NCBI RefSeq assembly: GCF_000019905.1
Contig: NC_010556.1
Span: 212,001-276,000, forward strand
Direction: 5' to 3'
Length of the DNA: 64,000 nt
DNA from: Exiguobacterium artemiae 255-15
GTDB lineage: Bacteria; Bacillota; Bacilli; Exiguobacteriales; Exiguobacteriaceae
The notes below the pieces were generated by a model. The model had not been told where the DNA came from. It saw only the letters and a list, made by a program, of their open reading frames with translations, and did no database searches. Position numbers and translations under genes: made by a program. Position 1 is the first letter of the stretch, and every line of letters begins with the position of its first letter. This document shows, piece by piece, positions 4,043 through 31,448 of this stretch.

Positions 4043-4095
4043 GACGAGGTAATAACGAAATTATAACTAACTTAATTAGTTCTCACTCAACCAGT

Positions 4096-4273
4096 GGGAT
4101 GGAGGTTGCAGTTCTTATAAGTACAGTCACGGATGTCGTCAAGCGGCAGATGAGGTGATTGAAAAGGAAGAATTGCCGAAATCAATCATCGCTTTGAAGA
4201 TGATCGATTGGGATTAGATCGAACAGGTCTAATACTGTCACAGGTCAGATATGACTTGTGGGGAGCTATCTTT
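4096..4273 (+). ncRNA. Lysine riboswitch (L box)
   Basis: The conserved L-box blocks occur in order: a GGAGGTTGCAG start, the AGTA bulge, GAAGAATTGCCGAA in the middle, and GGGGAGCTATC at the end, which pairs with the opening GATGG to close P1. It precedes an amino acid permease of the lysine type, with a terminator hairpin between them. Lysine binding should therefore favour termination and switch uptake off. This fits the known Bacillales arrangement for lysine transporter genes. Confidence 0.92.
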
Positions 4274-4310
4274 CACGACGGTAGAATGGGGCGCATCCTT
4301 TTACTATGTT

Positions 4311-22974: not shown

Positions 22975-23057
22975 TCCATTTTCGAAAAAGACTTTACTTT
23001 TTCAGTGAACTCCGTAAAATGGAACACATCACGCATCAACGAATAAACGTATAGCAA

Positions 23058-23126
23058 CGCTCGTATAATAGTGGGGATTGGCCCACGAGTCTCTACCGGA
23101 TCGCCGTAACGATCCGACTACGGGTG
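23058..23126 (+). ncRNA. Purine riboswitch, guanine type
   Basis: All conserved blocks are present: TCGTATAATA, GGGATTGGCCCACGAGT, CTCTACCGGATCGCCGTAAC, then GATCCGACTACG. The base that sets specificity in the last block is C (GACTACG), as in guanine/xanthine-controlled xpt switches; adenine switches have T there. P1 closes between CGCTCG and CGGGTG with wobble pairs. It controls xpt-pbuX through the terminator at 23150-23191. Confidence 0.95.
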
Positions 23127-23130
23127 GTGA

Positions 23131-25103
<1,973 letters not shown>

Positions 25104-30552: not shown

Positions 30553-30992
30553 AACGGTATCTGTTTCCAGTCCTGCAAATCATCGTCGTCCTCGGTGTGA
30601 TCCTCAGTTTTTACTCCATTTCCTGGTTCGGTGACAGTTACCGCTTTCGGGCGGAACCGTATGATCCGTTCAGCCCGGTCTATGGTGAATATGTCATGTT
30701 GCAGTATCCTGATTTGAAACCTGCGGATTCCGTCAAAAAAGGATTGGTCTACGTTACGTTTACAACGGATTCAGATGGTTATGCCAAGATCGACCGTATC
30801 TCAAATGACCGCTTTTTCGGTTCCGTTGCCGGAGATTATTACGACAAGTACGTCACGATTCCCCAATTAAACCAGTATTATGTGGAACAGGGAACAGGAA
30901 AAGGGTACGAGGATGCAAAAAAATTAGTCGTCAAAGCCGATGTCTCGCCGTGGGGTACGGTTCGGGCAACCGATTTGAGTGTTCGAAATTGA
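30549..30992 (+). CDS. GDYXXLXY-domain protein
   Basis: 147 residues. One N-terminal membrane segment (LQIIVVLGVILSFYSISWF), then an extracellular domain with the naming motif as YGEYVMLQY (Gly-Glu-Tyr variant) near residue 50. Translationally coupled to the DUF2157 gene by ATGA. Function unknown. The stop codon at 30990-30992 abuts the structured element at 30992-31385. If that element encodes a guide RNA, the last bases of this gene occupy the guide position. Confidence 0.82.
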   Translation: MKRYLFPVLQIIVVLGVILSFYSISWFGDSYRFRAEPYDPFSPVYGEYVMLQYPDLKPADSVKKGLVYVTFTTDSDGYAKIDRISNDRFFGSVAGDYYDKYVTIPQLNQYYVEQGTGKGYEDAKKLVVKADVSPWGTVRATDLSVRN

Positions 30993-31377
30993 ACTACCTC
31001 CACCTACGCTTCGCTAAGAGGTGGAGGATTCCTGAGTTAGTCAACCTAGCGGTCAAAAATTTATCAGGCTAACCCCGTCGTCCCGACGGTTGAACGTTGA
31101 TCTTGTCCGTTTCTTTTATGCGGATGCCTACTCTGCTTGGTTTTCGCTACTTCGGTCATCCGCAAGGTGAACGTTGAAGATTTTACGTGACAGACGAACT
31201 TCCTGTCACAACCCTATATCTTCAGTTTTCAAAGAACATGACTATTTTTTATTCCTGATTTTAATTGTTTTCAAACCAAGAGTGTCGGGCAATTGACGTG
31301 TCGCAAGACACGCTTTGCCCGAAGACGATTCATCCCCCACTTGCACTAGGGCCTCGCCCTGAACGTTTAGAAGTGGG
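30992..31377 (-). ncRNA. Array of six hairpins, probable TnpB-type guide RNA (omega/reRNA) scaffold remnant
   Basis: Six inverted repeats follow one another with no other gene. Read on the minus strand they are: AAGTGGG/CCCACTT (31377-31336) with inner AGGGC/GCCCT; TCGGGCAA/TTGCCCGA with inner CGTGTC/GACACG (31322-31285); GTGACAG/CTGTCAC (31209-31187); GCGGATG/CATCCGC (31163-31120); CCGTCG/CGACGG (31089-31075); and CCTCCACCT/AGGTGGAGG (31027-30997). After the last stem comes TAGTTCAA. A decamer TGAACGTTGA occurs at 31091-31100 and 31168-31177. The layout resembles the 3' region of IS200/IS605-type tnpB genes, where the last coding bases and the region after the stop form the guide-RNA scaffold. 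Family assignment is from pattern memory, not a search. Confidence 0.5.
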
Positions 31378-31385
31378 AGTATTCT
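31242..31385 (-). pseudogene. Possible C-terminal remnant of a tnpB/orfB-like gene
   Basis: An open frame on the minus strand reads LLNVQGEALVQVGDESSSG, then KACLATRQLPDTL, and ends in GLKTIKIRNKK at a TAG (31242-31244). Upstream of about 31385 the frame runs into the cstA terminator, so no N-terminal part exists here. The same bases form the first two hairpins of the array. This fits the dual coding/scaffold use at TnpB 3' ends, but none of the catalytic DED or zinc-finger residues are present. It could also be a chance frame. Confidence 0.4.
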
Positions 31386-31400
31386 CGTCTGATTTTGATA

Positions 31401-31448
31401 AAAAGACCGCCTGGATGGATACACGAAATCCATGTACAATCCAGGCGG
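31401..31448 (-). terminator. Terminator of cstA
   Basis: CCGCCTGGAT and its complement (31407-31416, 31439-31448), followed on the minus strand by TCTTTTT. It lies seven bases after the cstA stop. Confidence 0.85.

Follow-up and report, generated by a model that had tools for sequence, protein, structure and literature searches.

A protein-free IS200/IS605-family element of Exiguobacterium joins a conserved structured RNA core to a TnpB-type guide-RNA scaffold

Elements of the IS200/IS605 family transpose by way of single-stranded DNA and require subterminal hairpins, and the known TnpA transposases need only the element ends. By the rules described for IS608, the right-end hairpin, box and cleavage site are DNA signals for TnpA. 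TnpB is the ancestor of Cas12, and trans-acting omegaRNAs have reportedly already been proposed for related systems. The TnpB omegaRNA (reRNA), described for ISDra2 (PMC8612924, PMC10097598) and for AmaTnpB with its 106-nt scaffold (PMC10278001), consists of a scaffold formed by the 3' end of tnpB and the right end of the element, followed by a 3' guide taken from the flanking DNA, with a TAM at the left end. The guide comprises ~16 nt of flank (PMC8612924), and published scaffolds measure ~106–116 nt (PMC10278001, PMC10097598). The part of the PATE description from Haloquadratum walsbyi that was available (PMC3119063) portrays elements without a transposase, with near-terminal palindromes related to IS605-type ends and no target duplication, some of which retain part of the tnpB C-terminal region.

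The window considered here is the whole stretch of 64,000 nt of Exiguobacterium DNA that was analyzed. A sequence-only reading had singled out a gene-free block of six perfect hairpins at 30992–31385 and compared it to a tnpB 3' end with a guide-RNA scaffold. The hairpin block is present and folds beyond chance (z = −5.4 on the minus strand and −4.5 on the plus strand against dinucleotide shuffles), and the absence of a coding gene was borne out, the short ORFs at 31174–31296 (plus strand) and 31242–31439 (minus strand) being without support as genes. Nested arms were located by repeat search at 31323–31342/31371–31390, 31285–31292/31315–31322, 31168–31181/31218–31231, 31119–31126/31157–31164, 31090–31105/31163–31178 and 30997–31005/31019–31027, and on the minus strand the last hairpin is indeed followed by TAGTTCAA. 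The stems are not all perfect, as several arms are only 70–81% complementary, and the block had been drawn 3 and 12 bases too short at its two ends. Positions 30989–31397 on the minus strand constitute an intact, mobile, protein-free non-autonomous element of the IS200/IS605 family, of the PATE type and 409 bp long, which in the minus-strand reading begins at its left end (31397) and finishes at its right end (30989). Its features are:

31398–31402, minus strand: target/TAM TTTAT, host DNA next to the left end, seen in the empty site
30989–31397, minus strand: whole element, delimited by an empty site, an identical insertion and the end comparison of 25 full copies
31323–31390, minus strand: left-end subterminal hairpin CTCCCACTT...AAGTGGG, occurring likewise at tnpB-element left ends, with a similar one in tnpA-tnpB elements
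31285–31322, minus strand: second hairpin CGGGCAAAGCGTGTC...GACACGTCAATTGCCCG, with a similar hairpin (...CTTGTCCG) in distant family members
31246–31274, minus strand: putative sigma-A promoter, TTGAAA (31269–31274), 17-nt spacer and TAAAAA (31246–31251), read by eye
31096–31243, minus strand: conserved core RNA domain, 148 nt, built of an outer helix and two arms, a long one with GGGUUG...CGUAAAAU and another with GCGAAAACCAAGC
30989–31094, minus strand: TnpB-type omegaRNA 3' scaffold, 106 nt, which is the right end of the element
31064–31093, minus strand: retained last tnpB codons TCAACCGTCGGGACGACGGGGTTAGCCTGA (STVGTTGLA-stop), which also form a hairpin
30997–31027, minus strand: right-end hairpin CCTCCACCT...AGGTGGAGG with GAAT before it, from repeat search
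30989–30993, minus strand: right terminus TTCAA, cleavage-site-like, from the empty site and copy comparison
30969–30988, minus strand: predicted guide TTTCGAACACTCAAATCGGT, host DNA past the right end, placed by the guide position known from the ISDra2 reRNA (PMC8612924)
30549–30992, plus strand: GDYXXLXY-type host gene, whose stop TGA (30990–30992) now comes from the right end of the element

The limits of the element follow from an empty site in a sister species (G014, locus L105), in which the host sequences GTGTTCGTAA and ATAAAAAAACCG meet without interruption. A second genome (G013, locus L104) carries the same insertion as the window, with the element exactly between GTGTTCGTAA and ATAAAAAAACCG. 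Comparison with the empty site places the insertion directly 3' of TTTAT on the minus strand, with no target duplication. The empty allele of the GDYXXLXY gene ends CGT AAA TAA, and the TGA supplied by the element replaces the native TAA; the C-terminal residues read VRK in the empty allele and VRN with the element.

Three full copies are present in the source genome, the other two 87–88% identical to the window copy, together with one internally deleted copy. Approximately 25 full copies, plus fragments, occupy different sites across 19 Exiguobacterium genomes, and many copies at different sites in several species are 97–98% identical. The sequence just before the full copies is TTTAT in most cases and TTTAC, TTCAT or CTTAT in a few, and the copies end in TTCAA (TTCAC in one); their right flanks vary with the insertion site. 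In sequence, the element has the features of a PATE: a fixed short target without duplication, ends common to protein-coding members of the family, no transposase gene, and multiple dispersed copies. Its ends carry subterminal hairpins and not terminal inverted repeats, as required of a non-autonomous IS200/IS605 element. Internally deleted derivatives of ~180–270 bp (L011, L099, L101 and L102) retain little beyond the ends, with a TTTAT-type flank and a TTCAA terminus.

Both ends connect the element to tnpB. Over its first 37–75 nt it matches tnpB elements at their left ends, and its left end is also similar to that of tnpA elements in the source genome. The 3'-most 106 nt are 85–92% identical to the right ends of eight tnpB elements of the same genome, as the comparison with a tnpB 3' end had anticipated; this homology, the absence of which would have refuted the sequence-only reading, includes the codons STVGTTGLA-stop. 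Within the 106 nt lie a CCGUCG-GGA-CGACGG hairpin, CCUGA/UCAGG and CCGACC/GGUCGG stems, the right-end hairpin and TTCAA. The element has two properties of an omegaRNA locus, namely a scaffold whose homology is with a tnpB element's 3' end and a left-end TAM of the related tnpB class (TTTAT here, and TTTAT, TCTAT and TTTAC at three tnpB left ends); cleavage specificity is not covered by this comparison. The source genome contains 16 TnpB Zn-ribbon matches and 3 Y1 TnpA matches. Just upstream of the shared hairpin, the Exiguobacterium tnpB elements carry GAAGC-NGAACGNNUCUUA-GCUUC, which from its sequence looks like scaffold stem 1 with a possible pseudoknot strand. This stem 1 region is absent from the gene-free element, and the core sits in its place.

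The ends also vary in a coordinated manner. The tnpA-tnpB elements of the source genome (L061, L062, L031 and L025) have TTTAA on the left and GAAG...TTCAC on the right; the gene-free elements and their tnpB-only relatives have TTTAT on the left and GAAT...TTCAA on the right, so that the hairpin-adjacent box and the cleavage site change together. A weak match to Rfam RF02841 (Ref70, Enterococcus sRNA 70; E = 0.42) falls on the omegaRNA scaffold at 31012–31095 of the minus strand, and it is possible that Ref70 is itself a guide RNA of TnpB.

The most unusual part of the locus, overlooked in the sequence-only reading, is a conserved RNA domain in its own right, not derived from tnpB. The scaffold adjoins this core directly on its 3' side. 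The window core scores 163.6 bits against the covariance model (E = 3.9e-42); the core was found in no tnpB element, and its full-length matches in the source genome are confined to the three element copies. Among the Exiguobacterium copies, mean pairwise identity is 94.6% in the core, 90.6% in the right end, 83.7% in the left end and 79.1% in the promoter region. Covariation across genomes, a lack of which would likewise have refuted the earlier proposal, proved strong in this middle domain: in 45 sequences, 35 of 39 pairs have changes on both sides, with a covariation score of 0.541 versus 0.168 for shuffles and 0.055–0.076 with the partner strand slid. For 69 distinct sequences from another set of loci, the values were 33 of 39 pairs and a score of 0.502 versus 0.05–0.085. 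Fitting both alignments to the structure makes the percentage of paired cells too high, although we do not think this sufficient to cause a covariation gap of such size. The single minimum-energy folds of 40 cores have a median z of only −2.1, a modest value, so the case for the structure rests on covariation. Very strong as it is, this covariation establishes the core as a structure at the RNA level. G-U cells far outnumber A-C mismatches in the core pairs (156 versus 21), and one pair remains U-G in 44 of 45 rows; the preponderance of G-U indicates that the functional strand is the minus-strand transcript.

Many unpaired positions of the core are invariant. In some Bacilli (L173, L174, L176 and L178), GCGAAAACCAAGC occupies the loop of the other arm instead of an arm of its own, as if it were a relocatable tertiary contact. 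A pseudoknot between UUUGAA in the core and UUCAA at the right end is possible in Exiguobacterium and is not claimed, because it shows no covariation in other families. No Rfam 15 family matched the core at or near its gathering score. Known RNA families were likewise rejected for the locus, none reaching its gathering score, with mir-9424 (in fact the cstA terminator) and Ref70 below threshold; elsewhere in the window, Rfam identified lysine and purine riboswitches at 4092–4276 and 23041–23140, respectively. The possibility that the core is a captured rRNA leader, raised by the boxA-like TTCTTTGAAAACTG, was discarded, this motif occurring in the source genome only inside two of the elements. 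A putative promoter lies just upstream of the core; it is degenerate, and a consensus scan listed only another site. Across the family, a −10-like box is found just upstream of the core in 0.53 of loci versus 0.15 of shuffles. Transcription of the element is inferred, in the absence of transcript data.

The core is distributed widely. Covariance model R1 has matches in 44 of 399 Bacilli genomes and in 28 of 145 genera. A genome often holds several of them, and the weakest few may be chance. A pattern scan of 84,980 species (CGTAAAAT, 20–50 nt, GCGAAAACCAAGC) returned at least 118 stretches; among the matches listed are many Bacilli, Clostridium, Synergistales, Desulfovibrio, Desulfobulbus and one Deltaproteobacteria MAG, and some are due to chance, for example one apparently inside a gene (L239). 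Applied to Synergistales and Desulfovibrio-type loci, model R2 gave E values of about 0.08 to 1e-6, most of them ≤1e-3, so that scores outside the Bacillota are weaker than those within, with the same motifs. The core RNA resides in gene-free IS605-like elements of Bacilli, Clostridia, Synergistales and relatives of Desulfovibrio, at least three phyla. Comparison of copies within genomes set element limits in Synergistales, Clostridium tepidiprofundi, Lederbergia, Oceanobacillus and G307, where the left limit coincides with TTTAT or TTTAA or falls just ahead of it and the right limit is TTCAA, TTCAC or GTCAA; in Desulfovibrio only the right limit is clear. Carriage by phages was considered and rejected: three viral pattern matches look like chance occurrences in coding DNA, and phage records share the ends only.

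The junction of core and scaffold is a recurrent one. Of 129 cores, 65 have a strict right-end signature on their downstream side, versus 7 of 225 control windows and 2 of 129 shuffles. Several families that differ in tnpB type show likeness to the tnpB 3' end from one and the same hairpin (ACCG...) onward, right after the core, and the outer helix of the core closes where the Exiguobacterium tnpB elements have the stem 1-like stretch; from this position it is inferred that the core takes over the 5' part of the scaffold. No tnpA or tnpB was found next to the core in 118 loci by tblastn with the source-genome proteins, the matches obtained representing the shared right end and two distant genes, and the core is on these grounds no part of tnpB or tnpA elements. 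TnpB matches occur in 36 of 37 core-bearing genomes, the exception (G340) having only a borderline core match, and TnpA matches in 30 of 37, with Y1 TnpA not found in the other 7. This co-occurrence of TnpB is weak support, since TnpB is common in Bacilli anyway and is present in 16 of 20 relatives without the core.

The reading preferred here, with a probability of roughly 0.6, is that of a protein-free IS605-type element that makes a trans-acting guide RNA for TnpB and is mobilized by TnpA from elsewhere. A promoter within the left part of the element would produce one RNA comprising, from 5' to 3', the core, the TnpB-type omegaRNA scaffold and ~16–20 nt of host flank as guide. This free-standing guide RNA would be loaded in trans by the TnpB of related elements in the same cell, and TnpB with its guide would then cut the empty site (TTTAT plus guide), allowing the element to be copied back after excision by TnpA made elsewhere. 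The core would replace the 5' part of the omegaRNA (the stem 1/pseudoknot region, which lies inside the tnpB ORF) and would stabilize or present the guide RNA without a tnpB message; because the stem 1 supplied by tnpB is absent, the scaffold may be unusable unless the core substitutes for it. Loading in trans, homing, the function of the core and mobilization by a Y1 TnpA are, like transcription, inferences made without transcript or binding data. The model has to contend with the fact that the source-genome TnpA elements with similar ends use TTTAA/TTCAC and not TTTAT/TTCAA. The sequence-only reading had offered a guide RNA acting in trans and a non-autonomous element as separate options; the latter is confirmed by a mobile, protein-free element with a conserved scaffold, and the two fit together, transcription and activity remaining inferred.

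The right end might have been retained solely for recognition by TnpA, with the core acting as a separate RNA in some other job (regulation of TnpA, binding of a host factor, or resistance to Rho or RNase) and no use made of TnpB. The hairpin, GAAT box and TTCAA do double as DNA signals of TnpA-type ends, the stem 1 part of the scaffold is missing, and deleted copies (L011, L099 and L102) occur without the core or without most of the scaffold. However, the retained segment, 90.6% identical between copies, contains stems from inside the scaffold for which TnpA has no known need, and several families have the core fused to a tnpB scaffold at one common hairpin. This explanation is unlikely but still worth serious consideration. 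The structures might instead work as single-stranded DNA during peel-and-paste transposition, in keeping with the need of IS200/IS605 elements for subterminal hairpins; the core is internal, where TnpA has no known requirement, and its bias toward G-U on one strand and its preserved U-G pair are as expected of an RNA. A role as DNA and not as RNA is very improbable.

The invariant unpaired nucleotides and the mobile GCGAAAACCAAGC motif could befit a self-cleaving ribozyme or a riboswitch, by which the guide RNA that follows would be released or gated; no Rfam ribozyme or riboswitch matched, no catalytic signature was recognized, and little weight can be given to this idea. Least credible of all is a dead remnant of a tnpB element. 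The last tnpB codons without an ORF are what such a remnant would leave, but it is contradicted by intact ends, by numerous nearly identical copies dispersed through several species, and by a covarying core that is more constrained than the ends, and the earlier doubt that this was a dead relic was well placed.

If the preferred reading holds and trans-acting guide RNAs are made, these small non-coding transposons are guide-RNA genes detached from the gene for the nuclease, a separation that CRISPR, too, required, and they would explain how protein-free IS605 elements escape loss upon excision. Tentatively, and with less assurance than for the single element, an RNA domain present in at least three phyla may repeatedly have become fused to 3' scaffolds from different guide RNAs of TnpB, replacing the tnpB-encoded part and giving rise to RNA-only homing parasites that reprogram TnpB in trans. 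The core represents a structured RNA class absent from Rfam and may serve as a natural stabilizer or 5' handle for compact TnpB genome editors. No description of it was found in the literature searched, and its novelty is provisional because that search did not include the main work on IS605 homing.

Among known systems, the eight IS1341-type (tnpB-only) elements of the same genome share with this element the left-end hairpin, the right-end 106 nt and the TAM class, whereas they carry tnpB (only a partial copy in one) and lack the core. For the bcr10 and bcr18 repeats of the Bacillus cereus group, we know of no report of IS605 ends or a guide scaffold. They are comparable as intergenic repeats with a conserved RNA structure, and they are transcribed (PMC3446304). 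The PATEs of H. walsbyi agree with the element in each of the respects given at the outset, from the missing transposase to the remnant of tnpB; they differ in being archaeal and not from Bacillota, their description predates knowledge of guide RNAs, and the part of it available mentions neither a conserved structured RNA core nor a promoter (PMC3119063). The TnpB omegaRNAs match the element in scaffold, predicted guide and TAM, and it departs from them in having no tnpB ORF and, where the 5' part of their scaffold would lie, a conserved domain of ~150 nt.
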